From Pseudomonadota bacterium (GTDB lineage Bacteria; Pseudomonadota; Gammaproteobacteria; QQUJ01), in assembly GCA_008501635.1 (NCBI GenBank), contig QQUJ01000030.1, positions 186,001 to 250,000 on the forward strand: a DNA stretch of 64,000 bases, written 5' to 3'. This document shows, one piece after another, positions 668 to 14,583 of this stretch (positions are counted from its first letter, which is position 1; each line of letters opens with the position of its first letter). A program made the translations under genes and the position numbers. The notes below the pieces were generated by a model. That model was given only the letters and a program-made list of their open reading frames with translations. It was not told the origin of the DNA and did no database searches.

Positions 668-1663
668 TCAGAAGTCGCCGGTCGCCGCGCCTTCCATAAT
701 GTAGCGCATGGCGTTGCGGATGCGCTGCGCGTCGGCCCTCAACTCTTTGTCGAGCTCACTGTTGGGATTCTGCGCATAGTCCAACCAGTTGATGTCCCAG
801 TCCATCGTCATTACCCAAAGCTTGCCCTCCCCATCTTCAAGCAGGGCGATGCGGCAGGGTATGAAGATGACGAACTCCGGCACGTAGTCGAGTATCTTGC
901 GTGCGACGACAGCGTCGCAGAACTGAAAGATCTCGACGCGCGGTGTGTTTTCATCACCAGTGATGGCGCGCACGTCTTTCCACAAGGGACTATGGCCTAC
1001 GAGCTTGAAATTCACCTCGTTGGCACGCAGCTTCATGGAATCGACCGCATCGTCGAACGAGACCCCTTCCTCCACCGGAAGTTTGTCGGTCATGATGCTG
1101 ATCATGTCGCGCATGGAGAGCGGGCTCATCAGCATCATGCTCTGGTACATGCTGCGTTTCGCCTCGGTGGAAATGCTCTCTGAAACGGTATTTGGCTTCC
1201 AGTTTCGAAGGGTTTGCGTAGGGAAACCCGGTACTCGGATGGCGGGGATGCGATCCGGAACAGTGCCCTCGCCTTTGGCCAGATCGACCAGGTCCAATTT
1301 CTCTTGCTGCTCAGCTCCAGGCGTTGGCGTCAGCCCGAACATGAACCGCGGATCGGCCGCGCGCATCATCGCATCCATGACCTGGAAACGTGTCGCCTCA
1401 TCCATCGCAGGCCCCATAAAATGGTTACCCATGACGTTCATCCACTGGAACATCATCCCGGCATAGTTGGCATTCGGGTTGTTGGCATATGCCGGAGGTA
1501 ACTGGCCTGCCGAGTTTGCCACCCACTGAAAATCCATCCAAGGTACGGTTGGAGGTACTTGCGGTGCCGGCGCAGCGCCGGAGTTCGCAGCATTCTGCGC
1601 TCCAGCAGGCGTCACCCAGAATGCGGCTGCCAGAACGATTGCGAGGACATTCCTCAACGCCAT
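668..1663 (-). CDS. Secreted Met-rich protein with C-terminal DUF302 domain
   Basis: 331 residues from the ATG at 1663, which lies 7 bases after GGGGAG. Longer in-frame starts (1666, 1678, 1702) are possible. The N-terminus is a signal peptide ending near TPAGAQ. Residues about 50-120 are rich in Met and aromatic residues (MMFQWMNVMGNHFMGPAMDE), echoing the cytochrome downstream. The C-terminal 150 residues match the DUF302 pattern: a segment like VEEGVSFDDAVDSMKLRANE, then an FCDAVVARKILD segment and a FIPCRIALLED segment. DUF302 has no agreed biochemical function. The gene lies between the small secreted protein and the cytochrome in the soxYZ operon, so a periplasmic role in sulfur oxidation is inferred from context only. 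Confidence 0.8.
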   Translation of the reverse strand: MALRNVLAIVLAAAFWVTPAGAQNAANSGAAPAPQVPPTVPWMDFQWVANSAGQLPPAYANNPNANYAGMMFQWMNVMGNHFMGPAMDEATRFQVMDAMMRAADPRFMFGLTPTPGAEQQEKLDLVDLAKGEGTVPDRIPAIRVPGFPTQTLRNWKPNTVSESISTEAKRSMYQSMMLMSPLSMRDMISIMTDKLPVEEGVSFDDAVDSMKLRANEVNFKLVGHSPLWKDVRAITGDENTPRVEIFQFCDAVVARKILDYVPEFVIFIPCRIALLEDGEGKLWVMTMDWDINWLDYAQNPNSELDKELRADAQRIRNAMRYIMEGAATGDF

Positions 1664-1715
1664 CATTGGTCTCCCCATCGTATCAATATAGATCAACCCC
1701 ACATAATCCGGCGGC

Positions 1716-1750
1716 GCTGAAGTCCCCCCGCAACGGACGCGGGTTTCAGC
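1716..1750 (-). promoter_or_regulatory. Intercistronic hairpin before the DUF302 gene
   Basis: GCTGAA at 1716-1721 pairs with TTCAGC at 1745-1750, and CCCGC at 1727-1731 pairs with GCGGG at 1739-1743 around a 7-base loop. There is no T-run after it on the minus strand. It is better read as an mRNA processing or stability structure than as a terminator. Confidence 0.4.
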
Positions 1751-1777
1751 CGCGGGAAAAGATTACCAGCTGTAATT

Positions 1778-2062
1778 CTACTGAGTCGTATCCGACGGCG
1801 CTCCCGACAGGAGCTGCCCGAACCATGAAATCACGGTGAAAGGCGTGCTGCAGGCCACGGTCACCATGTCACTGATCATTTTGGGCATATCCAGGCATCC
1901 GGCGCTCTGGCCATACGGTTGATTCACCGGACAGGTGGATGACTGGCTGGTTTGGCCTGTAGGACACAGGAAAGTCTGACACTGCTGCGGTTCCGATGTC
2001 GCATCCGCTGTCAAGGGCGAAGCGGCGATCAACGCGATGGCTAGTAGAAGTTTCTTAGGCAT
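1778..2062 (-). CDS. Small secreted Cys-containing protein of unknown function
   Basis: 94 residues with a signal peptide (MPKKLLLAIALIAASPLTADA). The mature part of about 73 residues holds five cysteines, four of them in the first 40 mature residues (QQCQTFLC, STCPVN, SAGCLD) and one in VACSTPF. The odd number leaves one Cys free, or available for a partner or ligand. It lies between soxZ (146 bp upstream) and the DUF302 gene (114 bp downstream) on the same strand, consistent with one transcript. I do not recognise the family. The signal peptide, ATG start and operon position support a real gene. Function cannot be assigned. Confidence 0.65.
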   Translation of the reverse strand: MPKKLLLAIALIAASPLTADATSEPQQCQTFLCPTGQTSQSSTCPVNQPYGQSAGCLDMPKMISDMVTVACSTPFTVISWFGQLLSGAPSDTTQ

Positions 2063-2208
2063 TGGCAGTATCCATATCCTGGTAACTGGGTAACGTAGTT
2101 AGCGGTAGATACGCCCAAGCGTCTGGCTTCTGAGCACACCTGAATGATAACGGTCGTATTTCCTTCTGTAACTCGATCGGGGCACACAAGACACGATCGC
2201 TCGGTGCG

Positions 2209-2520
2209 TTACGAGATCGTGTCCGAAAGCTCGCCCGTGGCCCCCTTGCTATCCGTCCATTTCAGCGTTACCGCTTCGCCCTTGTTACCCCCTTTGAAGC
2301 GGAACGACATATAGGGATTGGCAGAGACGCCACCACCCCAGTGGACTGTCAGCACCGTATTGCCGTTGTGCAGGCAGGCGATCTCCTTGATGAAATGCTC
2401 TGGAATCAGCTCGCCCGACGTTTTGTCACGACGGCGTCCACTCTCCATAGGATGAGCGAGGATCGCCTTCACTTCCGTAACGCCGTCTTTCAACTTCACG
2501 CGAATCTTGTCTTTCGCCAT
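2209..2520 (-). CDS. soxZ: Sulfur-carrier complex subunit SoxZ
   Basis: 103 residues, the usual SoxZ length, with no signal peptide. The SoxZ pattern is visible: ILAHPMESGRRRD near the N-terminus, then IPEHFIKEIACLHNG, an NPYMSFRFKG strand and a terminal VTLKWTDSKGATG segment. SoxZ forms a heterodimer with SoxY in the periplasm. It holds SoxY, whose C-terminal Cys carries the sulfur substrate, and is exported with SoxY by the Tat route. The gene follows soxY by 30 bp, the standard order. No soxAX, soxB or soxCD is visible in this window. Confidence 0.95.
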   Translation of the reverse strand: MAKDKIRVKLKDGVTEVKAILAHPMESGRRRDKTSGELIPEHFIKEIACLHNGNTVLTVHWGGGVSANPYMSFRFKGGNKGEAVTLKWTDSKGATGELSDTIS

Positions 2521-2550
2521 TTTCTCGACCTCGTAGATTCTGCTGTCGGA

Positions 2551-3027
2551 TCAGCCGCAACCGCCGATCGCCACCTTGACTGATTTCTGCGCCGAATAGA
2601 TTTTGCCGCCCGCGTAGACCAGCGCGGTCACCGGGCAGCTTTCCGCGACCTTGATTCGTACCGAGACGTAGGCCTCGCAACCCTGGCCAAGTACGTACTC
2701 CGCCACCATCGGCCGCGGATTCTTCTCGACCAACACGACGATCTTTTCGACGTTCTCAATGTCTGTGGTGACCTCGACGGGCACTTGCGAACCGTTCTCG
2801 GCAACGTCCGGTGCGTCTACCGTTACCCGCTCACTGGCTTCCGGAGCAACACCACCAGTGATTGCATTCTTCGCCACATCAAACTTGTCGGTCGCGAATG
2901 CCTCGGCAGGCCAGGCCGCCCAAACGATACGCGGTATCAGGAATCCTGTGCTTGCGACAACGCCCATCGCGCTGGCTGCCATCGCGCCTTTCACTACCAG
3001 TCTGCGCTTTTCGTTAATCTTGTTCAC
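2551..3027 (-). CDS. soxY: Thiosulfate carrier protein SoxY
   Basis: 158 residues from the GTG at 3027, which has GGGAG 8 bases upstream. A TTG at 3045 would add six residues but lacks a ribosome site. The N-terminus NEKRRLVVKG plus a hydrophobic run fits a Tat signal. The SoxY domain follows and the protein ends in GGCG. SoxY carries thiosulfate-derived sulfur covalently on the Cys of its C-terminal swinging arm. The usual ending is GGCGG, so this one lacks the last glycine. It is the first gene of the minus-strand operon. The divergent regulator starts about 500 bp away. Confidence 0.93.
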   Translation of the reverse strand: MNKINEKRRLVVKGAMAASAMGVVASTGFLIPRIVWAAWPAEAFATDKFDVAKNAITGGVAPEASERVTVDAPDVAENGSQVPVEVTTDIENVEKIVVLVEKNPRPMVAEYVLGQGCEAYVSVRIKVAESCPVTALVYAGGKIYSAQKSVKVAIGGCG

Positions 3028-3532
3028 TGCCAAAACTCCCACCAAAACGGATAGTCAAGCTGTTAAGAAGACCGAAACACCCCGCCGGGTGCTTGCGGCG
3101 TACAGGGTATCCAGAAAAACGACTGGCCCCCAAAGAAGATAGGTTAATTAGCACATTACCGAAAACTTCTAAACCAAAGACATAGCCCATAGTAGGTACT
3201 GAAAATGGCATCCGGTATTAATCGATTGTTTTCACCCGCCCGCGATGCACCTCACTGTATTTCATAGTGATTTACTGCGAATCTCCACGGGTGCTCATAA
3301 CCCGCGGTGCCGAAAGGCGTGTAACGCATCATCGGTTCAACCGCGCGCTCAAGCACATCCCACGCAAAACAGGAACGATCGAACTTTTCCGCAGATAACG
3401 CCCCAGCAACCGCATTACATCAACCCCGAACAGCCGCATCAAGTACCAGTGCGCTGCTCGGCAGTGATTCATCGATACTCGACTCGCAAACTTGCACGCG
3501 GCAGATCCCCAGTCTAGTGTTTGAAGGGCCGA
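3028..3532. other. Divergent intergenic region, soxY to sigma-54 activator
   Basis: About 500 bp without a convincing gene. It must hold the soxYZ promoter and probably the activator promoter. I found no good sigma-70 or sigma-54 match. A short palindrome, TCACT (3252-3256) and AGTGA (3266-3270) with a 9-base spacer, is a weak operator candidate. Short open frames on both strands here lack ribosome sites and recognisable content. Confidence 0.5.
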
Positions 3533-5002
3533 ATGCAGAGGCACAGGGAGCGCCTAACAAAAGTGCAAACCGAGCAATTTCTATCCGATGCCAAGCAGTT
3601 GCACCGGCAGGCGGTGCAGTCGCTGTTCCAGCTGTTCGAGTCCCAGTGCGAAGGCAGCATCGCCGTCGATCGAGACGCGCGCATTGTCTGGATCAACGAT
3701 AAGTACCGTCTGTTGCTTGGTTTGCCTGACGGATTGGATGTCATCGGCCGCGACGTCGAAGAGATCATCCCGCAGAGCATGATGCGACAGGTGATTCGAA
3801 CCGGTCGCCCAATTCTGCTCGACATCATGGCGTTCCAGAATCACGATTTCGTAGTCACGCGCATCCCGCTGATCGATGAGCAGGGAGAGATCACCGGGGC
3901 GGTCGGTTTCGTACTCTACGACACCATCGAACCTCTCAATCACATCCTTACCAAATTCAACCAGCTGCAGAGCAGATTGGCAAAAACGGAACGCGAACTC
4001 GCGTTTCACCGTAAAGCCAAGTACAGTTTTTCTCAGTTCCTGGGCAACAATCCGGCAATTCAGGAAATCAAGCGCCATGCGCGGCGCGCAGCCGAGCACG
4101 ATTCCAGCGTCCTGCTGTTGGGTGAAACCGGCACCGGCAAGGAGCTCCTGGCGCACGCTATCCACAACGCCTCCCCGCGCGCCGATCAACCATTCGTGGG
4201 ACTCAATGTCACCGCCATCCCTGAGACGCTGCTCGAATCAGAGTTCTTTGGGGTCGCACCCGGCGCTTACACGGGTGCCGACCGCAAGGGGCGCAAAGGG
4301 AAGTTCGAACTCGCCAATGGCGGCACGCTGTTTCTCGACGAGATCGGCGAAATGCCGCTGAACCTGCAATCCAAACTGTTGAGGGTGCTTCAAGAGCAGG
4401 AGTTCGAGCCGCTCGGTTCAAACCGCATCGTACGGGTCGACGTACGCATCATCGCCGCCACCAGTGCCGAGCTGGAGGAGAAGGTCAAGAAAGGCGGGTT
4501 TCGTGCTGATCTCTACTATCGGCTCAAGGTGCTACCCATCCGCTTGATACCGCTGCGCGATCGCCTGGATGATATCCCCATTCTCTGCGAACGCCTGCTC
4601 GAGCAGCTCGCCCTGCGCAACCACAGCAAAGCACGCGAACTCGATGACTCCGCGTTGGCGACGCTCACCGCCTACGCCTGGCCCGGTAACGTCAGGGAAC
4701 TCAGCAACGTGCTGGAGCAGAGCTGCGCGTTAAGCGACAAAGCCAAACTGGCCGCAGCTGATTTCGCGGGCATCCTTCCCGCGGCATCCAACTCGAAACC
4801 CACTCGCCCGCGCGCTGACAGCGTAAGACCCCTGGCGGAACTTGTCGCGGAGATCGAACGCTCCGCCATTGGTGCCGCCCTCGAGGCGACTCGCGGCAAA
4901 AAGACCGCTGCCGCGAAAATGCTGGGAATATCGCGGGCGAAGCTTTACGAACGACTCGCCGAATTCGGCATGCTGTCCAATAGCCAGACAGAAAACGTCT
5001 GA
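3533..5002 (+). CDS. Sigma-54-dependent transcriptional activator (PAS, AAA+, Fis-type HTH)
   Basis: 489 residues from the ATG at 3533; GAAGGG lies 4 bases upstream, and an in-frame TTG at 3521 is the alternative. Domains: a PAS-like sensor at about residues 40-150 ([17 protein letters not shown]), a coiled linker, an AAA+ domain with Walker A GETGTGKE near 198, and a sigma-54 contact loop GAYTGA at 244-249 (Tyr replaces the usual Phe). Walker B is LFLDEIGEM, and the C-terminal Fis-like helix-turn-helix is [17 protein letters not shown]. There is no receiver domain, so it is not an ordinary response regulator. It ends inside the first of two palindromes upstream of the TRAP operon, which is its likely target. 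The ligand of the PAS-like domain is unknown. Confidence 0.92.
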
Positions 5003-5012
5003 ATTCCGGACA
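4997..5012. promoter_or_regulatory. Upstream activator site 1 (palindrome)
   Basis: GTCTGAATTCCGGACA is the exact reverse complement of the 16 bases at 5058-5073. Each copy is itself near-palindromic (GTCnnGAATTCnnGAC). It overlaps the stop codon of the activator gene. The two centres are 61 bp apart, close to six helical turns, as expected for cooperative binding by a sigma-54 activator. Confidence 0.7.
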
Positions 5013-5057
5013 ATTACTATCCCAACTTGCAGATGGTCTGCGAGGATTGGCAGTGAG

Positions 5058-5073
5058 TGTCCGGAATTCAGAC
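5058..5073. promoter_or_regulatory. Upstream activator site 2 (palindrome)
   Basis: TGTCCGGAATTCAGAC is the exact inverted copy of site 1. It lies about 77 bp upstream of the -24 element, a usual enhancer distance for sigma-54 promoters. Binding by the adjacent activator is an inference. Confidence 0.7.
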
Positions 5074-5117
5074 AAGTAGCTGTCATTGGTCGGCTTGCAC
5101 AAGCCGAGCACTAATCA

Positions 5118-5130
5118 TAACTCTCTGATT
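5118..5130 (-). promoter_or_regulatory. IHF-like site between enhancer and promoter
   Basis: On the minus strand AATCAGAGAGTTA fits the IHF consensus WATCARNNNNTTR at every defined position. It sits in an AT-rich stretch between activator site 2 and the -24/-12 promoter, where DNA bending would bring the two together. Confidence 0.55.
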
Positions 5131-5149
5131 ATTCTGGTTTATATAAAAA

Positions 5150-5164
5150 TGGCATGAAGCCTGC
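5150..5164 (+). promoter_or_regulatory. Sigma-54 (-24/-12) promoter of the TRAP operon
   Basis: TGGCATGAAGCCTGC matches TGGCAC-N5-TTGC with correct GG to GC spacing and two substitutions outside the invariant GG and GC. Transcription would start near 5176, about 80 bp before dctP. The palindromes, the IHF-like site and the neighbouring sigma-54 activator all support it. Confidence 0.75.
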
Positions 5165-5257
5165 CTTAAAGTGTGGAATCCACGGCACCTGCCCTGGAAA
5201 TCCGTACAACCCCCTTCGGTCGGGGGGCGTTCACCGAATGAGGAGAGAGGGAAAACC

Positions 5258-6334
5258 ATGAAAGTATCCAAACAACTGTTGGCACTCACTGCAGCCGCCG
5301 CCTTGACCACAGCTACGGGCAGCGCCCTGGCTGCCAAAGTAAAGCCGGTACTGCTGAAGGTGCCGATTGCGTTTGCCACCGTCCTGCCGGCGCTGGGTAC
5401 ACCGATCAAATGGGTGGGCGACAATATCGACACGGTCTCCAACGGCACGGTCAAGATGAAGGTCTACGAGCCGAACAAGCTGGTCGCCCCGTTCGAGATT
5501 CTCGATGCCGTCAGCACCGGCAAGGTCAACGCCGGCTACACCACCGCCGGTTACTGGGCGGGCAAGATCCCCGCCTCGCCGCTGTTCTCGGCGGTGCCGT
5601 TTGGTCCTGAGGCGGGTGAGTACATGGCGTGGCTTTACTACGGTAACGGTCTGAAGCTGTATCAGGAGATGTACGATCAGGGCGGCTACAACGTCAAGGT
5701 GATCCCCTGTGCCATCATCGCGCCGGAGACCTCGGGCTGGTTCGCCAAGCCGATCAATTCGGTGGCGGATCTGCAGGGGCTGCGGATGCGCTTTTTCGGC
5801 CTTGGCGGCAAGGTGATGCAGAAGCTCGGGGTATCGACCTCGCTGATACCCGGGGGTGAGATCTTCCCGGCCCTGGAGAAGGGCGCCATCGACGCGACGG
5901 AGTTCTCCATGCCGGCGATCGATCAGCGCCTCGGCTTCTCCAAACTGGTCAAGTACAACTACTACCCCGGCTGGCACCAGCAGGCGACGGTGTTCGAGTT
6001 GCTGGTGAACAAGGACGAGTGGAACCAGATGCACGAGAGCCAGCAGGCGGTGGTCGAGACCATCTGCAAGGCCTCGATGGCGCAGTCGTTCGCCGAGGGA
6101 GAGGCGATTCAGTTCGAGGTGATGAAAAAGAACGTCGAAGAGGCCGGTGTGAAGAACATGTACTGGTCGGACGAGATGCTGGCCACCTTCCAGAAGACAT
6201 GGGACGAGGTCGTCGCGGAGGAGGCTGCAAAGGATGCCTTTTTCAAGAAGGTCTACGAGGATCTGGCCAACTTCCGCAACGGCTACGATCTGTGGGAGGC
6301 CTACGCCTTCCTGCCGCGCGCCCAGCGCCAATAA
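5258..6334 (+). CDS. TRAP transporter substrate-binding protein (DctP family)
   Basis: 358 residues from the ATG at 5258, after a GAGGAGAGAGGG ribosome site. An open frame from 5171 exists, but the signal peptide begins at MKVSKQLLALTAAAAL. The periplasmic protein binds the substrate and delivers it to the DctQ/DctM permease. Visible family marks are ETSGWFAKPI, then GLRMRFFGLGG with Arg178 in the position of the carboxylate-binding Arg, and GGEIFPALEKGAIDATE. The NYYPGWHQQ segment recalls the 2-oxoacid/lactate (TakP-like) subgroup. The substrate is therefore probably a monocarboxylate or 2-oxoacid, which fits the CoA-transferase downstream. This is an inference. It is the first gene after the sigma-54 promoter. 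Confidence 0.9.
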   Translation: MKVSKQLLALTAAAALTTATGSALAAKVKPVLLKVPIAFATVLPALGTPIKWVGDNIDTVSNGTVKMKVYEPNKLVAPFEILDAVSTGKVNAGYTTAGYWAGKIPASPLFSAVPFGPEAGEYMAWLYYGNGLKLYQEMYDQGGYNVKVIPCAIIAPETSGWFAKPINSVADLQGLRMRFFGLGGKVMQKLGVSTSLIPGGEIFPALEKGAIDATEFSMPAIDQRLGFSKLVKYNYYPGWHQQATVFELLVNKDEWNQMHESQQAVVETICKASMAQSFAEGEAIQFEVMKKNVEEAGVKNMYWSDEMLATFQKTWDEVVAEEAAKDAFFKKVYEDLANFRNGYDLWEAYAFLPRAQRQ

Positions 6335-6360
6335 CACGCGCGGCGACAGATGACAGGAAG

Positions 6361-6384
6361 AGGGGGCGACGCGAGTCGTCCCCT
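6361..6384 (+). terminator. Attenuator-like hairpin between dctP and dctQ
   Basis: AGGGGGCGAC and GTCGTCCCCT form a 10-bp stem with one G-U pair around a GCGA (GNRA) tetraloop. The following sequence, CCCTTATTTC, is only weakly T-rich. It may stabilise the dctP message or partly stop transcription so that the binding protein outnumbers the permease. Confidence 0.55.
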
Positions 6385-6528
6385 CCCCTTATTTCAGGGA
6401 GCAAACCATGGCCGTTTTGGCCTGCCGGTCGCCAAGAACAACGGAAATCCTAATTGCAGTTCACCTGATTCCAAGCCGTTGACTGGATTTCTTGAGCTCT
6501 GGCAACAAGTTGGGGGGAGGGAGGTTCG

Positions 6529-7065
6529 ATGAGCACACCAGTTATTGCTGAACATGAGCCCATACCCGTCCCGCTTGCGGACGCGATTGACCGGTTGATC
6601 CGCTGGTTAGGACACGGGATCTGCTGGGTCTACGGGGTGTTGGTGTTTGTGATCATCCTGCAGGTGGTGCTGCGCTATGGATTTGGCGAGGGCAAGGTGA
6701 TCCTCGAGGAGTTGCAGTGGCATCTGTACGCCGTGGGGGTGATGTTCGGCGTCGCCTACGCCCAGGCCAACGATGCGCACATTCGCGTCGACATCGTGCA
6801 CATGCGCCTGCGTCCCCGCACCCAGCGGCTGTGGGAGATCTTTGGCATCGTGGTGTTTCTGCTGCCTTTCGTGTGGGTGGTCTTTTATACCAGCCTGGAG
6901 TTTGTTACCGAAGCCTGGCGGGTGGGCGAGCGCTCCGATGCGCCCCTGGGGCTGCCCTACCGCTGGCTGATCAAAGGCGCCATTCCGGCGGCGTTCGGGC
7001 TGCTGGGGCTCGCCGCGCTCTCTAGGCTGTGGCGCGATCTTTACCTGCTGATGAAAAACAGATGA
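6529..7065 (+). CDS. TRAP transporter small permease subunit (DctQ family)
   Basis: 178 residues with GGAGG 5 bases before the ATG. Four membrane segments are visible, at about residues 28-48, 63-82, 103-125 and 145-165. The family signature lies around VILEELQWHLYAVGVMFGVAYA, with ANDAHIRVDIV following. DctQ pairs with the large subunit DctM in the inner membrane. It lies 194 bp after dctP, separated by a hairpin, and is followed by an inverted-repeat element before dctM. The three genes form one Na+-driven tripartite carrier. Confidence 0.9.
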   Translation: MSTPVIAEHEPIPVPLADAIDRLIRWLGHGICWVYGVLVFVIILQVVLRYGFGEGKVILEELQWHLYAVGVMFGVAYAQANDAHIRVDIVHMRLRPRTQRLWEIFGIVVFLLPFVWVVFYTSLEFVTEAWRVGERSDAPLGLPYRWLIKGAIPAAFGLLGLAALSRLWRDLYLLMKNR

Positions 7066-7150
7066 TTTCGCGCCAAGGCGCAAAGACGCCAAGGGGCGCG
7101 AAGATTTTTATTCATGATTTTCTTGGCGAACTTGGCGTCTTGGCGCGAAA
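7066..7150. repeat. Dispersed inverted repeat, copy A
   Basis: TTTCGCGCCAAG (7066-7077) is the exact reverse complement of 7139-7150, and GACGCCAAG (7085-7093) pairs with CTTGGCGTC (7131-7139). It begins directly after the dctQ stop codon. Similar GCGCAAAGACGCCAAG-type pairs occur at 17224-17316 and 41175-41333. Confidence 0.75.
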
Positions 7151-7188
7151 TCCCCTTCGCCCTCATTCAACGATTCTAGGCTGCGGTT

Positions 7189-8580
7189 ATGGGATTTGAC
7201 GTCAACAACCTCCTGGTCATTGCGATGTTTCTCGCCTTCATCGCGTTTTTGTTTACCGGCTTTCCGGTCGCCTGGGTGCTGGGCGGGATCGGCGTGCTGT
7301 TCGCCGGGGTGGGGTACCTGTCCGACCTCCACCTCGACACCATCACCGGGCTCGATTTCCTCACCCTCGGGCTGGTGGTCAACCGCATCTACAAGATCAT
7401 GGACAACTGGGTGCTCGTCGCCCTGCCGATGTTCATCTTCATGGGGCTGATGCTCGACAAGTCCGGCATCGCCGAGCGGCTGATGCACTCGATGCAGGAG
7501 CTCTTCGGCAAGGTGCGCGGCGGGCTCGCCGTGACCGTAACGCTGATCGGCATCATCCTCGCCGCCTCGACCGGGATCATCGGCGCCTCGGTGGTGCTCC
7601 TGGGACTGCTCTCCTTACCGGCGATGCTCAAGCAGGGTTATAACAAGGCGCTCGCCCTGGGCACCATCGCCGGGGCCGGCACCCTGGGGATCCTCATTCC
7701 CCCCAGCATCATGCTGGTGATCATGGCCGATCAATTGGGGCTCTCGGTGGGGGATCTGTTCATGGGCGCGGTGCTGCCGGGGCTGCTGCTCGGCACCCTC
7801 TACGGGGTCTACATCCTGGTGCTCGCGCTGTTTCGGCCCCGGCTCGCCCCGCTCAATCCCGAACGCCGCCCGATCACCGCGGCCATGGTGTTCGATGTGT
7901 TCAGATCGATCCTGCCCCCGGTGCTGCTGATCGTGGCGGTATTGGGTTCGATCTTCGCCGGCATCGCCACCCCCACCGAGGCCTCGGGGGTCGGCGCGCT
8001 CGGGGCGACGCTCCTGGCCGGGTACAACAAACGGCTCAGCTTCAAGGTGTTTAACGAGGTGCTGCGCTCGACCTACAACACCACCGCCTACATCTTCGCC
8101 ATCTTCCTGGGGGCCACCTGCTTTGCCCTGGTGCTGCGCGAACTCGGCGGCGATGAGCTGATCGAATCGGCCATCACCTCGCTGCCCTTCGGCCCCTGGG
8201 GGATCATCGCCTTCATCCTGCTGATCATCTTTCTGCTGGGCTTTATCCTCGACTGGATCGAGATCACGCTCATCGTGCTGCCCTTGATCGCCCCGATCGT
8301 CAGCGGGTTGGGGCTCGATATCCCCGGCTTTGGGGTGGTGGATAACCCGGAGCTGGTGTGGTTCGTGCTCCTGGTCGCGGTGGCGTTGCAAACCAGCTTC
8401 TTGACGCCGCCGGTGGGTTTTGCGCTCTTTTATCTCAAGGGCGTGTGCCCCCCCGAGGTGCGCCTGGCCGATATCTACAAGGGCGTGATTCCCTTTATCA
8501 TCCTCCAACTCATCGCCCTCACCACCGTCGCCCTCTGGCCCGCCATCGTCACCTGGCTGCCGTCGGTGGCGTACAGATAG
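7189..8580 (+). CDS. TRAP transporter large permease subunit (DctM family)
   Basis: 463 residues, the usual size, with about twelve hydrophobic segments. DctM signatures are visible: LFTGFPVAWVLGGIG near the start, GAGTLGILIPPSIMLV near residue 165 and TPTEASGVGALGA near 265. This subunit forms the Na+-coupled channel for the substrate released by DctP. It follows dctQ after a 123-bp gap filled by an inverted repeat and precedes the CoA-transferase by 21 bp. No clear ribosome site is seen before the ATG at 7189, but the start fits the family. Confidence 0.93.
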   Translation: MGFDVNNLLVIAMFLAFIAFLFTGFPVAWVLGGIGVLFAGVGYLSDLHLDTITGLDFLTLGLVVNRIYKIMDNWVLVALPMFIFMGLMLDKSGIAERLMHSMQELFGKVRGGLAVTVTLIGIILAASTGIIGASVVLLGLLSLPAMLKQGYNKALALGTIAGAGTLGILIPPSIMLVIMADQLGLSVGDLFMGAVLPGLLLGTLYGVYILVLALFRPRLAPLNPERRPITAAMVFDVFRSILPPVLLIVAVLGSIFAGIATPTEASGVGALGATLLAGYNKRLSFKVFNEVLRSTYNTTAYIFAIFLGATCFALVLRELGGDELIESAITSLPFGPWGIIAFILLIIFLLGFILDWIEITLIVLPLIAPIVSGLGLDIPGFGVVDNPELVWFVLLVAVALQTSFLTPPVGFALFYLKGVCPPEVRLADIYKGVIPFIILQLIALTTVALWPAIVTWLPSVAYR

Positions 8581-8601
8581 CCACACAGGAGAACCGCTTG
8601 C

Positions 8602-10158
8602 ATGGGTGTGAGCAAAGTCATCGACGCACGCGCCGCTGTCGCCAGCGTAAAACCGGGGGACACGCTGGCAACGGCAGGATTTGTTGGGATTGGCTTCCCC
8701 GAGGAACTGGCCATTGCCCTGGAGCAGCGTTTCCTCGACGAGGGCGGACCGCGCGACCTGACCCTGGTCTACGCTGCCGGACAGGGCGACGGCAAAGATC
8801 GCGGTCTCAACCACTTTGGCCACGAGGGGATGGTGCGCCGGGTCATCGGCGGCCACTGGGGGCTGGTCCCCAAACTGGGGGCACTGGCCAGTGCCAATAA
8901 AATAGAAGCCTACAACCTGCCGCAGGGGGTCATCGCGCACCTCTACCGCGACATCGCCGCGGGCCGCCCCGGGGCGCTCACTCGCGTTGGCCTCCATACC
9001 TTCGTCGATCCGCGGGTGGATGGCGGCAAACTCAATGCGGCGGCCCAACACAATATTGTTCGCCTGATGGAGATCGATGGCGAGGAGTATCTGTTCTACA
9101 AGGCATTCCCCATCAACGTGGCGCTACTGCGCGGCACCACGGCCGATCGCAACGGTAATATCACCATGGAACACGAGGCCTTGCCGCTGGAGTGTCTGGC
9201 CATCGCTCAAGCGGTGCGCAATTGCGGCGGAACGGTGATCGTCCAGGTGGAACGCATCACCGAACGCCATATCCTGAGCCCCCATCTGGTGCGCATCCCC
9301 GGGATCCTGGTCGATCACGTTGTCATTGCCCGCCCCGAGAACCATTGGCAGACATTCGGCGAGATCTACAACCCCGGCTATACCGGCGAGATCCGCACCT
9401 CGGCTGCCAACGCCAAACGACTGCCCCTCGACGAGCGCAAGATCATTGGCCGACGGGCCGTAATGGAGCTGCAGGCCGGCGCTGTGGTCAACCTCGGCAT
9501 AGGCATGCCCGAAATGGTGGCAGCGGTTGCCGAAGAGGAACAGACCTTCGAGCGCGTGGCGCTGACCGTCGAGCCGGGCGGCATCGGCGGGGTACCCGCC
9601 GGGGGGCTCAGTTTCGGCGCGGTTGCGAATGCCGACTCAATCATCGATCAGCCGGCGCAGTTCGACTTCTACGACGGTGGCGGCCTCGACCAGACCTTCC
9701 TTGGCATGGCTGAAACCGACGCCCGCGGCAATGTGAACGTCAGCCGTTTCGGCCCCAAGACCGCCGGTGCCGGTGGCTTCATCAACATCAGCCAAAACGC
9801 CAAGGCGGTTTATTTTCTCGGAACGTTTACTTCAGGCGGACTGGACATCCAGGTGCGCGACGGCGGGCTGCATATCGCTCAGGAAGGCAAGGCCCGCAAA
9901 TTCGTTGCAGCCGTGCAGCATCTCACCTTCAATGGCCGCTACGCGATCGAACGCGGCCAGCAGGTGATGTACATTACCGAACGTGCCGTGTTTCGCCTGA
10001 CAGGTGACGGACTGGATCTGCTCGAGATTGCACCGGGCATCGATCTGGAACGTGACCTCCTGGCCCATATGGCGTTTCAACCACGGATCGCCGAATCACT
10101 GAAGACCATGGACGCTCGAATTTTCCACGACGGACCGATGGGCCTCGCCGACGAGTAA
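8602..10158 (+). CDS. YdiF-type acyl-CoA:carboxylate CoA-transferase
   Basis: 518 residues from the ATG at 8602, after CAGGAG. It is a single-chain family I CoA-transferase with fused alpha and beta halves. The N-half holds [12 protein letters not shown]. The C-half holds [12 protein letters not shown] and [14 protein letters not shown], in which Glu324 is the expected catalytic Glu that forms the glutamyl-CoA intermediate. These enzymes move CoA between short acyl-CoAs and free acids. The gene is 21 bp after dctM, so it is probably co-transcribed and activates the imported acid. Which acid is not determined by the sequence. Confidence 0.88.
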
Positions 10159-10256
10159 GCATCGCTGAACCCGCCCGATATTGGGATGAAAATCGGGGAG
10201 GCTTTCTGTATCATTGCGCCTTTCCTGAAATCTGTCCCCAACGATCAGGTATCCGT

Positions 10257-10332
10257 GGGCCGTTAGCTCAGTCGGTAGAGCATCTGACTTTTAATCAGGT
10301 GGTCGCTGGTTCGAATCCAGCACGGCCCACCA
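10257..10332 (+). tRNA. tRNA-Lys (TTT)
   Basis: A 76-nt cloverleaf. Acceptor GGGCCGT pairs with ACGGCCC, the D arm is GCTCAGTCGGTAGAGC, and the anticodon loop CTTTTAA gives TTT with A37. The T arm is GCTGGTTCGAATCCAGC, and CCA is encoded. mtaB starts 30 bp downstream. Confidence 0.98.
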
Positions 10333-10362
10333 TCCCCTATCCCGTACTGTGGGGGGGCGACA

Positions 10363-11583
10363 TTGACCTCACCGCCACAAAAACCTGTCCGATTCTACAT
10401 CCGCACGCTGGGTTGCAAGATGAATTGGCTCGATTCTGCGCGTCTGAATGCGGCGTTGAGCCGCGCCGGACATGTTCCTGTCAACCGCGAATGCGACGCC
10501 GACTATGTTCTCGTCAACTCCTGCACCGTCACCGCGCAGGCGGATCGCAAATCCCGTCAGCAGGCCAACGCCGCGCGCCGCGCGCACAAGCAGGTCGCCG
10601 TTCTGGGCTGCGGACCCCGTATCGACGCGCAGAGCTATAACAATCAACTGAACGATGTCCTGGTCTTCGAGTCCGAGCAGCGCCTGTTCGACTACTTCGG
10701 TATCGAGGCCGACTGTGATCCACTGCCCCTCAACACCCGCACCCGCCTGCCGATCGCCATTCAGACCGGCTGCGATGACGTATGCGGTTTCTGCATCACG
10801 CGCTTCGTCCGCGGCGCACACCGCAGCCTGCCGGTCGAGGCCATCGTACGCCAGATCCGTCACGCGGAAGAGCTCGGGTTGCACGAGGTCGTGCTGACCG
10901 GAATCAACCTGGCGGCGTGGGGTTGCGATGACACCCGTCATCCGCACAACGCCCGGCTGCATGAGCTGCTCACGGCAATCCTCGCCAAGACCGGGATCCC
11001 GCGGATCCGCCTCTCCTCGCTGGGACCCCAGTATCTCAGCGCCGGGTTCTTCGAGGTCTTCGCCGATTCGCGGATCTGCGATCATCTGCACCTTTCCGTG
11101 CAAAGCGGATCGCCGGGCGTTCTAACACGCATGGCGCGCGGACACGGAATCAGCGAAGTGCTGAACGTTGCGGCGCAGGCTCGCGCGGCGCGCCCCCAGG
11201 CAGGGCTTGCCGCCGACCTGATCGCCGGCTTTCCGGGAGAGACCGAGGCCGAGTTTCGCGAGACGATCGACACTGTTGAAAGCGTCGGTTTCGCCAAGCT
11301 GCACGTCTTCCCTTTTTCCGCACGCCAAGGCACACCTGCCGCGGGTGCCAGCGACCAGGTCCCGGGTGAAGTGAAAAAGATCAGGGCTGCAGAACTGCGC
11401 GTCCTCGGCGATACACTGCGTCAACGCTTTATTCACTCGCAATGGGGAACAGGTCACGTCGTGCTGACCGAAAAGAACGCAACCGGTCTTACACCCAACT
11501 ACATCAGGGTCAGCATGCCAGGCGAAGACGAGGGCGAACTGCGCCCGGTCCGCCTGGGGCCGCACAACACGGTAGCCGGATAG
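10363..11583 (+). CDS. mtaB: tRNA t6A37 methylthiotransferase (MtaB-type)
   Basis: 406 residues, probably from the TTG at 10363, preceded by GGGGGGG. The N-terminal methylthiotransferase domain has the three cluster cysteines C18 (TLGCKMN), C54 (NSCTVT) and C83 (VLGCGPR). The radical-SAM domain has CDDVCGFC (C137, C141, C144), and a TRAM-like end follows. The family converts t6A37 to ms2t6A37, shown for Bacillus MtaB on tRNA-Lys(UUU). The lack of the MiaB signature and the GCKMN motif place it in MtaB rather than MiaB or RimO. It lies directly after a tRNA-Lys(TTT) gene, so enzyme and probable substrate may share a transcript. Confidence 0.88.
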   Translation: MTSPPQKPVRFYIRTLGCKMNWLDSARLNAALSRAGHVPVNRECDADYVLVNSCTVTAQADRKSRQQANAARRAHKQVAVLGCGPRIDAQSYNNQLNDVLVFESEQRLFDYFGIEADCDPLPLNTRTRLPIAIQTGCDDVCGFCITRFVRGAHRSLPVEAIVRQIRHAEELGLHEVVLTGINLAAWGCDDTRHPHNARLHELLTAILAKTGIPRIRLSSLGPQYLSAGFFEVFADSRICDHLHLSVQSGSPGVLTRMARGHGISEVLNVAAQARAARPQAGLAADLIAGFPGETEAEFRETIDTVESVGFAKLHVFPFSARQGTPAAGASDQVPGEVKKIRAAELRVLGDTLRQRFIHSQWGTGHVVLTEKNATGLTPNYIRVSMPGEDEGELRPVRLGPHNTVAG

Positions 11584-11588
11584 TGAAA

Positions 11589-11606
11589 CGGGCCTCGAAA
11601 GGCCCG
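11589..11606 (+). terminator. Hairpin between convergent mtaB and aminotransferase genes
   Basis: CGGGCCT-CGAA-AGGCCCG is a perfect 7-bp stem with a tetraloop, placed between two convergent genes. The T-run after it is poor, so termination may be weak or Rho-assisted. Confidence 0.5.
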
Positions 11607-11636
11607 CTCCTCATAGCCAGGCCCAGAACCAGGAAA

Positions 11637-12827
11637 TCACAGCACCGCCGCAATGGCCGAGCACAGTGCATCCATGTTGGCACGGGTTATTCCCGCCACG
11701 CTGATACGGCCTGATCCGACGATGTAGATGCCGAACTCGTCTTTCAGACGTGCGACCTTCTCGGGATTCAACCCCGAGAAGGAGAACATGCCGTTCTGAC
11801 GTTCGATGAAGCTGAAATCACGCTCCACTCCCTTGGCTTTCAGGGTCTCGACAAACAGCGTGCGCATCGCGTGGATGCGTTCGCGCATCTCGGTCACTTC
11901 CTTTTCCCATTGCGCGTAGAGCGCCGGGTCTTCCAACACAGTGGTAACGACGGCACCGCCGTGCGCCGGCGGATTGGAATACATGGTGCGCACGATGGAC
12001 TTGGCCTGACTGAACGCGGTATCCGCGGTTGCGCTGTCCCTGGCGACCAGAGTGAAGGCGCCGACACGCTCATTGTAGAGACCGAAGTTCTTCGAGAAAG
12101 AGCTTGCCACCAATAATTCGGCGTTCTTCGCAGCGAAGTTACGCAGCCCCGCCGCATCCTCGTCGAGACCCCTGGCGAAGCCCTGGTAGGCGAAGTCGAA
12201 CAGCGCGAGCCACCCCTTCTCGGCGCCGAGTTGCGCCAGCACTTCCCACTCTTCCGCCGTGGGGTCGATGCCGGTCGGATTGTGACAACAGCCGTGCAGC
12301 AGCACCACATCACCCGGCTGCGCCTGCTGCAGATCGCGCACCATCGCCGCAAAGTCTTTGTCCTTGGCGGCCGCATCGTAGTAACCGTACTGGAGCACTT
12401 CCAGACCCGCGGATTTGAACACCCCGCCGTGATTCGCCCAGGTCGGGTTGCTCACCCAGATGCGCCGACAGCCCAACTGACGCACGATGAACTCTGCCGC
12501 AACACGCAGCGCCCCGGTGCCGCCCGGGGTGTGCGCAGTGCGCGCGCGGTTGCCGGTCACGATTTCGCTGTCGGCGCCAAAGAGCAGGCGCTGAACACCC
12601 TTACCGAAGGCCGCGGTGCCTTCAATGCTCAGGTAGCTCTTGGTGTTCTCCTGCTCCACCAGGCGCTGCTCGGCCAGTTTGACGGTTTTAAGAATCGGCG
12701 TAGTACCGGCTTCGTCTTTGTAGACCCCTACACCCAGGTTGATTTTGTCCTTGCGTGAATCGCTCTTGAACGCCTCGCTCAGTCCCAGAATGGGATCGGC
12801 TGGTGCCTCGCTCACCTTTTCAAACAT
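11637..12827 (-). CDS. Aspartate/aromatic amino-acid aminotransferase (AspC/TyrB family)
   Basis: 396 residues from the ATG at 12827 ([20 protein letters not shown]). The open frame runs further upstream but without family similarity. It is a fold-type I PLP aminotransferase close to AspC/TyrB. Marks are [13 protein letters not shown], the substrate-site segment [11 protein letters not shown], and the PLP-lysine motif [15 protein letters not shown]. It transfers amino groups between 2-oxoglutarate and aspartate or aromatic amino acids. Which of the two it prefers cannot be told here. It is divergent from nothing obvious; the zinc-ribbon gene lies 89 bp upstream on the same strand. Confidence 0.92.
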
Positions 12828-12916
12828 GGCTGTCCTCACAATGGCTGGCCTGACAAAGGCGGCGATTATCCCACAACAGTGCGGACTTTGTGCAGCGCGG
12901 AATGCGATACCAGATA

Positions 12917-13135
12917 CTATTCCTGTTCCATCTCCCGCAATTGCTCTATGGAAAATCCCGCCTGCCCCCATTCGCCGCAGGAGGGACATTCGGCATGCAG
13001 CACCAGCAGTTGATCCGCGGGACTGGTGTAGTTGGCATCCGCCTCGCGGTGAAACTCCATGATTCCGGCAAAACCGCACGGACACTGGGTCCAGCGTTTG
13101 TAGGGCCCCAGGTTCTTCACGGGATTGGTACGCAC
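12917..13135 (-). CDS. Small zinc-ribbon-like protein
   Basis: 72 residues from a GTG at 13135, two bases after the stop codon of the BepA-like gene, so probably translationally coupled. Two cysteine pairs, CPCG at about residues 18-21 and CPSCG at about 50-54, are spaced like a zinc ribbon. The C-terminus is acidic. I do not recognise a named family. Tight coupling to the protease gene and the paired cysteines support a real gene. Zinc binding is inferred. Confidence 0.65.
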
Positions 13136-13137
13136 CG

Positions 13138-14583
13138 TTACGACTCGGCCTTTTCGCGCTTCATGTCCGTGCGCATCTCGTTGCGGCGGGATTCCAGACG
13201 CGCCCGCGTGTAGAGATCGAGATCATGCACCTTAAGCGCCAGTTCCAACTGGCGGATCGCTTCACCGTAGTGGCCCAATTGATGGAACGATTCGGCCAGA
13301 TAGCCGTGCGCTTCAGCAACTCTGCCTGCCTCACCACTGGCACGTGCCGCCAATCGATACAACTCTGCATCGGGGGCGCGTCCGCGCATGTACTCTTGGA
13401 GGAACTCCCGTGCTTTGGCGGCCTGGTCGGTCTGCATGAGCGTAGTCGCGTAACCCAGAGCAAGGGGGTAATTGCCCGGGAAGAGGCGCAACGCATCCGC
13501 GTAGATGGTCAGCGCCTCCTTCCATTGGGACGCGGCCACCTCAATGTCCGCCAGCAACAGACGATAGGCCAACCGATCCGGCTCCTCACGCTGCAGAGCG
13601 AGTGCCGCTTCGCGCGCGGCCGGGATACGTTTGGCGCGTAACAACAACAGCGCCTCTCCATAGCGGGCGGCATCACGAACCACGCCTTGGGATTCGGTGC
13701 TCATCTTGTGAAATTGCTGGTAAGTCGCATCGAGATCTTCGGCTGCCCGCGCCACCACGCGTGCCTGCGCCAAATGGAACTCCAGCGCCAACACCTGCTG
13801 CCGAACCGGCAAACTCGATGCCCGATCCCTGGCCTCCGCGAGTCGATCCGTGGTCACTGGGTGGGTCAGCAGATATGAGGGTAGTTGTGTGCCATAGTAA
13901 CGGCTGGCCCGCTGCATACGCTCAAAGAACTCGGGCATATCACCCGGATCGAAACCTGCGTTGGCCAGAATCTGAATTCCAATACGGTCGGCTTCGCGTT
14001 CGTTGTCACGGGTGAAGTTGATTTGGCGTTGCACAGTTCCTGCAGCAACACCCGCAATGGCCGCACTCCCCAACTGCGCATCGGCGCCACCCAGAAGAAT
14101 CGCCCCCAACAGCGCTGCTGCGGCAGGCAAACTCATACTGCTGGCATCCTCATAGGCACGTGCCAGATGATTCTGGGTCACATGCGCAATCTCGTGCGCC
14201 AGCACTGCTGCCATCTCTCCCTCGTCCTGGGCGGCTGCGATCAATCCGGTATGCACACCGATATAACCTCCCGGCGCGGCAAAGGCATTTATGGAGGGGT
14301 CATCCACCACGAAAAAGGTAAAGGGCTGATCGAGGACATCGGCACTGCCTACCAGCCGGGCACCAACCGCCTCGACGTATTCGGTGATCAGTGGGTCTTC
14401 CAGCAATTTGCCCGCCTGCTGCAGCCTGCGCATCAACTCTTTCCCGATACGCTCCTGTTCGTGCGCGGACCAGATACTGCCCGCGGTGCTGCCCATCTCC
14501 GGCAGTTGCACCCCGGCGGCCATGCCCACAGAGGACAACAGGAGAAGAACGGCTACGGTGGCTGCCTGAACTCTCGGTATCAA
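13138..14583 (-). CDS. bepA: BepA-like periplasmic M48 metalloprotease with TPR repeats
   Basis: 481 residues with a signal peptide ([14 protein letters not shown]). The M48 domain has H130-E131-x2-H134 in [11 protein letters not shown]195 in NEREAD and H242 in THPVTTD, matching the zinc ligands and regulatory His of BepA. TPR-like helices fill about residues 290-470. BepA degrades or matures stalled outer-membrane proteins such as LptD and works near the BAM complex. The length fits the family (about 487). It is followed by a zinc-ribbon gene and stands divergent to tusA. Confidence 0.9.

Follow-up and report, generated by a model that had tools for sequence, protein, structure and literature searches.

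A tRNA-Lys(UUU) gene 30 bp upstream of a divergent MtaB-branch gene in a gammaproteobacterium, and the recurrence of tRNA-Lys(UUU) near mtaB in other lineages

Within the window, by which I mean the whole 64,000-nucleotide stretch of DNA analysed here, a tRNA-Lys(UUU) gene with an encoded CCA end is followed on the same strand by a gene for a methylthiotransferase of the MtaB branch (Table 1). The ARAGORN boundary of the tRNA and the start of the open reading frame leave a gap of 30 bp between them, as the original prediction had stated. The Rfam tRNA model scores 77.8 bits at 10257-10329, and the anticodon loop, CTTTTAA, places a U at position 36 and an A at position 37, so that the A37 claimed at the outset is indeed present. 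Both U36 and A37 are required for t6A. Among the 43 tRNA genes of the genome that were read for their anticodon (Rfam counts 44), this is the sole Lys(UUU) tRNA, accompanied by one Lys(CUU) tRNA. Upstream of the tRNA, a sigma-54 activator, a complete TRAP transporter (DctP, DctQ and DctM) and a CoA transferase lie in one run (3521-10158). The soxY and soxZ genes stand without soxB, the soxB of this genome being on a different contig (G000:C17), and the left window edge (3-311) carries an open reading frame of low-complexity repeats (GFIIPIIGAIIM and similar).

Table 1. Features of the tRNA-Lys(UUU)/mtaB region, in window coordinates.
Feature	Position	Strand	Basis
soxZ and soxY, part of an older sox/tRNA-Lys neighbourhood	2209..3045	-	
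Promoter-like site ATGAAA-17-TATCAT, probable promoter of the whole putative unit	10186..10214	+	consensus scan
tRNA-Lys(UUU) gene, encoded CCA, A37	10257..10332	+	ARAGORN tRNA-Lys (ttt); Rfam
30-bp spacer; predicted hairpin 10334-10355 overlaps candidate ribosome site; no T-run	10333..10362	+	
Divergent MtaB-branch methylthiotransferase, 406 aa, TTG start	10363..11583	+	
GC-rich hairpin directly behind mtaB without a proper T-run; might serve as a weak 3' terminus of the unit	11589..11606	+	
Class I/II aminotransferase, convergent with mtaB	11637..12827	-	PF00155
BepA/YfgC-like M48 peptidase	13138..14583	-	Pfam Peptidase_M48 and TPR; the label BepA is given here

The protein scores 305.9 bits against TIGR00089, the model for MiaB, RimO and MtaB methylthiotransferases (cut-off 251), and only three loci in the genome exceed this cut-off: the window gene and one unambiguous representative each of MiaB and RimO. 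Its best NCBIfam model is that of MtaB (TIGR01579), but at 316.9 bits it stays below the equivalog cut-off of 357.05, and I have filed it under the MtaB branch and not as a certified MtaB. Three cysteines (C18, C54 and C83) and the CxxxCxxC radical-SAM motif (C137-xxx-C141-xx-C144) do not vary in any of 20 sequences compared. The structure predicted by AlphaFold (mean pLDDT 90.5) finds its top match in B. subtilis MtaB (9a6d), with which it aligns across 390 residues and up to residue 406 (Z 44.4), ahead of MiaB (Z 41.2) and RimO (Z 40.6). A quick tree of 75 proteins places the window protein within a 15-row branch (SH-aLRT 100), separate from a 48-row group that contains the canonical gammaproteobacterial proteins. 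Taken together, the models, tree, cysteines and structural match demonstrate that the gene encodes a divergent MtaB-branch enzyme. The initial assignment as mtaB therefore stands for branch, best model and structure, and falls short of the curated threshold. Like B. subtilis MtaB/YqeV, the protein has the methylthiotransferase architecture, the six key cysteines and MtaB as best model and structure; unlike it, it scores below the curated cut-off, has a shorter C-terminal part and is only 32% identical (structural alignment). I also considered a loss of the TRAM domain: Pfam TRAM does not match the window protein, yet it fails equally on three canonical MtaB proteins and matches MiaB only, so that Pfam is unable to decide, and the structural model, with C-terminal strands at 364-397, argues against a loss.

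Passages in two published papers state that B. subtilis needs MtaB for the ms2t6A in its tRNA-Lys(UUU) and that E. coli has neither the enzyme nor the modification (PMC10702137, PMC5372745; for E. coli, PMC5372745), which agrees with what was said when the locus was first described: that MtaB makes ms2t6A on this tRNA in Bacillus and that the modification is not typical of E. coli. The window enzyme probably decorates tRNA-Lys(UUU) as well.

On the + strand, the site listed upstream of the tRNA is the only promoter-like one within 9000-13000, and sites scoring at least 8/12 in the two stretches scanned lie only upstream of the tRNA. The same TATCAT is found upstream of tRNA-Lys at three further loci (L127, L132 and L137). 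A looser scan of 10225-10385 revealed no second promoter ahead of mtaB, although a missing consensus is weak evidence here since other kinds of promoter, or one inside the tRNA, would escape the scan. No terminator was found by rule in the 90 nt 3' of the tRNA; the same rule calls a terminator in 12 of 26 tRNA-Lys 3' flanks examined, including 7 of the 12 from genomes of the same MtaB branch, and none in the other 14 (window included), so this absence is not special. The candidate ribosome site in the spacer, a purine-rich GGGGGGG at 10351-10357, would be hidden by the predicted hairpin, which could mean that mtaB is poorly translated. At seven pairs and a stability of z -0.11 relative to shuffles, this hairpin is no stronger than shuffled sequence, and I rejected it as a regulatory device. 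The hairpin behind mtaB comes from a fold of 11575-11640, where the rule-based scan calls no terminator.

One promoter upstream, with neither terminator nor promoter between the genes, is thus what consensus scans, and these only, give for this locus; the combination would make a dicistron likely, and for this genome alone I regard a coupling of tRNA and mtaB as plausible from its sequence. RNA polymerase would most likely start at the tRNA promoter and, in the simplest reading, continue through the tRNA into mtaB with no terminator between the two. Processing of the tRNA 3' end at the CCA would then free a short-leadered mtaB message, and the MtaB-branch enzyme made from it would methylthiolate t6A37 of tRNA-Lys(UUU), presumably yielding ms2t6A. 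The pairing itself may have arisen via local gene movement at an old locus of the form tolB-pal-cpoB-queE-queC ... tRNA-Lys ... bepA, which frequently has sox genes but lacks mtaB in relatives. To this explanation as a whole, from shared promoter to local origin, I assign a probability of roughly 0.6; the TTG start codon and the hidden ribosome site count against it.

Enzymes that modify tRNAs are usually expressed separately from their targets. If the dicistron is real, one transcript would carry both a tRNA and the enzyme that modifies its position 37, a simple way of matching enzyme to substrate. Bacterial transcripts that join tRNAs to an mRNA (thrU-tyrU-glyT-thrT-tufB) or a tRNA to an enzyme (pylT-pylS) are familiar; unlike in these, the predicted target of the protein encoded in the window is position 37 of the very tRNA with which its gene would be co-transcribed. 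A search of the literature on tRNA dicistrons found nothing useful.

The surroundings of the tRNA can be traced further than the pairing itself. In the window genome (G000), tolB, pal, cpoB, queE, queC and yeeE lie on the tRNA's contig; the run from tolB to queC ends about 16 kb upstream of the tRNA and the whole set, yeeE included, about 14.5 kb upstream. In 10 of 12 branch genomes tRNA-Lys(UUU) is adjoined by yeeE and/or queC. Among the best 30 soxB loci of the class, nine have tRNA-Lys(UUU) in the flank, seven of them without mtaB. The queC-yeeE-tRNA-Lys locus is old, and often lacks mtaB. Genome G060 retains bepA, soxYZAXB, mtaB, tRNA-Lys, yeeE and queC together in one run, and a continuous sox/mtaB/tRNA-Lys locus of this type would account for the presence of soxYZ and of a bepA-like gene close to the tRNA in the window. 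Two broader ideas about this neighbourhood were rejected. mtaB is not generally tied to sox, as the two are neighbours in just a few lineages (soxB is present in 143 of 369 class genomes). Nor is the aminotransferase an ancestral neighbour of tRNA-Lys, an idea prompted by Pseudomonas: the protein is found in 4 of 56 genomes (E 1e-60), one of them the window's, and no tRNA lies within the 1.5-kb flanks of its gene in the remaining three.

The immediate, co-oriented pairing of tRNA and mtaB is not conserved and is a local oddity. None of the 15 other branch loci has a tRNA within 1.5 kb of mtaB (close loci plus class survey, with L039 and G335 counted once and G356 cut by a contig end), and the eight close loci from named genomes (L036-L042 and L094) have no tRNA in the flanks examined. 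In G060, tRNA-Lys(UUU) lies 2.2 kb upstream of the branch mtaB on the same strand; its order is represented by G060 alone, just as that of the window genome is by G000 alone. The original prediction, which envisaged an unusual coupling of a tRNA with its own modifying enzyme, thus keeps its support from the signals between the genes, where no separate promoter or terminator is apparent, and loses any support from conservation. It had named absence of the pair in relatives, together with a promoter belonging to mtaB, as evidence against itself: the first is what the survey found, and the second is not visible.

These observations speak for a reading that is possible but clearly less probable than the dicistron, namely that the gene order is a coincidence, mtaB having landed behind tRNA-Lys in an old, rearrangement-prone neighbourhood, with any read-through serving no role. 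The immediate pairing is missing everywhere else in the branch, the tRNA-Lys/yeeE/sox neighbourhood does without mtaB in 7 of the 30 soxB loci, and, according to passages in two papers, the tRNA-Lys near queC is a known integration site for mobile elements in Pseudomonas (PMC9495688, PMC10945833). What speaks against coincidence comes from MtaB loci at large. tRNA-Lys(UUU) lies within 1.5 kb of mtaB at 27 of 153 MtaB loci, the 27 falling in four families, versus two loci from two families for any other tRNA. Of 62 control loci with MiaB or RimO as best match, one in a set of 36 has a tRNA-Arg nearby, the other set of 26 has no tRNA, and none of the 62 has a tRNA-Lys. At an expectation of 1/43, Lys(UUU) in 4 of 7 families has a binomial probability of 9.7e-6, and in 3 of 6, with two families merged, of 2.4e-4; both values are post hoc and assume independence, and the seventh case, a RimO-type locus with tRNA-Arg, was left in for caution. 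Should the gammaproteobacterial cases all go back to a single event, the number of independent cases falls to two and the evidence becomes weak. Even so, the observed distribution suggests that in other lineages mtaB lies near tRNA-Lys(UUU) at a frequency above chance, a recurrence that goes beyond what was originally predicted.

The 27 linked loci comprise the window, five gammaproteobacteria in which the two genes converge, and 21 loci of a single alphaproteobacterial family (f223) in which they diverge across dapF; since 40 alphaproteobacterial regions were added by hand-picking (28 from other families, 12 from f223), 21 of 153 overstates the frequency of this family. In two gammaproteobacterial families, f127 (3/3 genomes of its order) and f48 (two genomes), a canonical mtaB converges with tRNA-Lys(UUU) at a distance of 66-191 bp. 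These genes resemble the window's in their closeness to tRNA-Lys(UUU) and in occupying the same old locus, beside sox, whereas their products are about 35% identical to the window protein and their orientation precludes a single transcript. Two further gammaproteobacterial cases lie beyond the 1.5-kb limit, in G060 as above and in G135 (about 2.3 kb). Family f223 shares the proximity of mtaB to tRNA-Lys(UUU) but, unlike the window, has the tRNA 918-1318 bp upstream on the opposite strand at 21/21 loci, with dapF (PF01678, seen in L374) in between and oriented as mtaB is. The 49 loci from other families in the alphaproteobacterial set have no tRNA-Lys near mtaB. Among the 153 MtaB loci, only that of the window has a tRNA-Lys in the same orientation as mtaB within 1.5 kb. 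Convergent or divergent genes elsewhere do not form one transcript, and because orientation differs among lineages, co-transcription cannot account for the linkage in general. As a separate observation, one of those 49 alphaproteobacterial loci (L365) has tRNA-His(gtg) 58 bp upstream of mtaB and co-oriented with it, a candidate for read-through; tRNA-His is not a t6A tRNA.

The tally was drawn up after 36 loci with MiaB or RimO as best match and one without a match (L093) had been dropped; one of those dropped, L212, has an MtaB gene as well, for which the survey lists no tRNA. At least 1.4 kb is available on both sides at 134 of the 153 loci, the rest being cut by contig ends. A match was found in 64 class genomes, of which G272, G356 and a few cut by contigs were read in part or left out of the tally: G210 and G194 are included, whereas G356, G272 and G162 are not. 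At least one genome enters twice (L039 and G335). The scripted distances start at the tblastn match and not at annotated ends, which is why the gap in the window appears there as 31 bp instead of the true 30.

The wider linkage of mtaB with tRNA-Lys(UUU) is a more interesting lead than the local coupling. Its recurrence suggests, though it does not prove, that selection keeps mtaB near this tRNA, and the repeated neighbourhood makes selection for such matching testable by comparative genomics; a search of the open-licence literature found no paper on the linkage. I consider it doubtful, however, that the strongest form of this idea applies: that the linkage is selected and has at least two, perhaps four, independent origins in proteobacteria, with the window as its tightest case, a dicistron matching the supply of MtaB to tRNA transcription and 3' processing, perhaps with a spacer hairpin that would expose the ribosome site only after processing.

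A score below the curated MtaB cut-off means that the substrate of the enzyme could differ from the expected one, and the shortfall is common to the branch: all eight members scanned (the window protein and seven others) reach 305.5-342.6 bits, whereas three canonical MtaB proteins reach 374-392. The stem of the 15-row branch is also long, at 1.35 changes per column. The branch enzyme might then not be an ms2t6A synthase, having turned to another tRNA, to a further modified t6A or to a protein, and the tRNA-Lys neighbourhood would be uninformative. This seems improbable, given that MtaB is still the top sequence model in 8/8 members and the best structural match, and that MiaB and RimO are already encoded in the genome. 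Least probable of all is that mtaB was left as cargo by an island integrated at the tRNA-Lys 3' end, a scar to which the Pseudomonas insertion site beside queC and the roughly 14.5 kb between yeeE/queC and the tRNA in G000 would be suited, but against which stand the lack of a second tRNA 3' end (25 bases, allowing 3 mismatches) within the 64-kb window, the lack of an integrase among 10 neighbouring proteins scanned (668-14583), and the position of the extra stretch on the 5' side of the tRNA, whereas an insertion at the 3' end would lie on the other side.

Two minor observations concern other MtaB loci. A member of this gammaproteobacterial MtaB branch, at 53% identity, is encoded on a contig binned as Candidatus Peregrinibacteria (L040), through either misbinning or transfer. 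Directly downstream of mtaB in G083 (L251:10079-12806), repeat open reading frames with a period of about 23 codons occupy both strands and resemble a CRISPR array read as protein.
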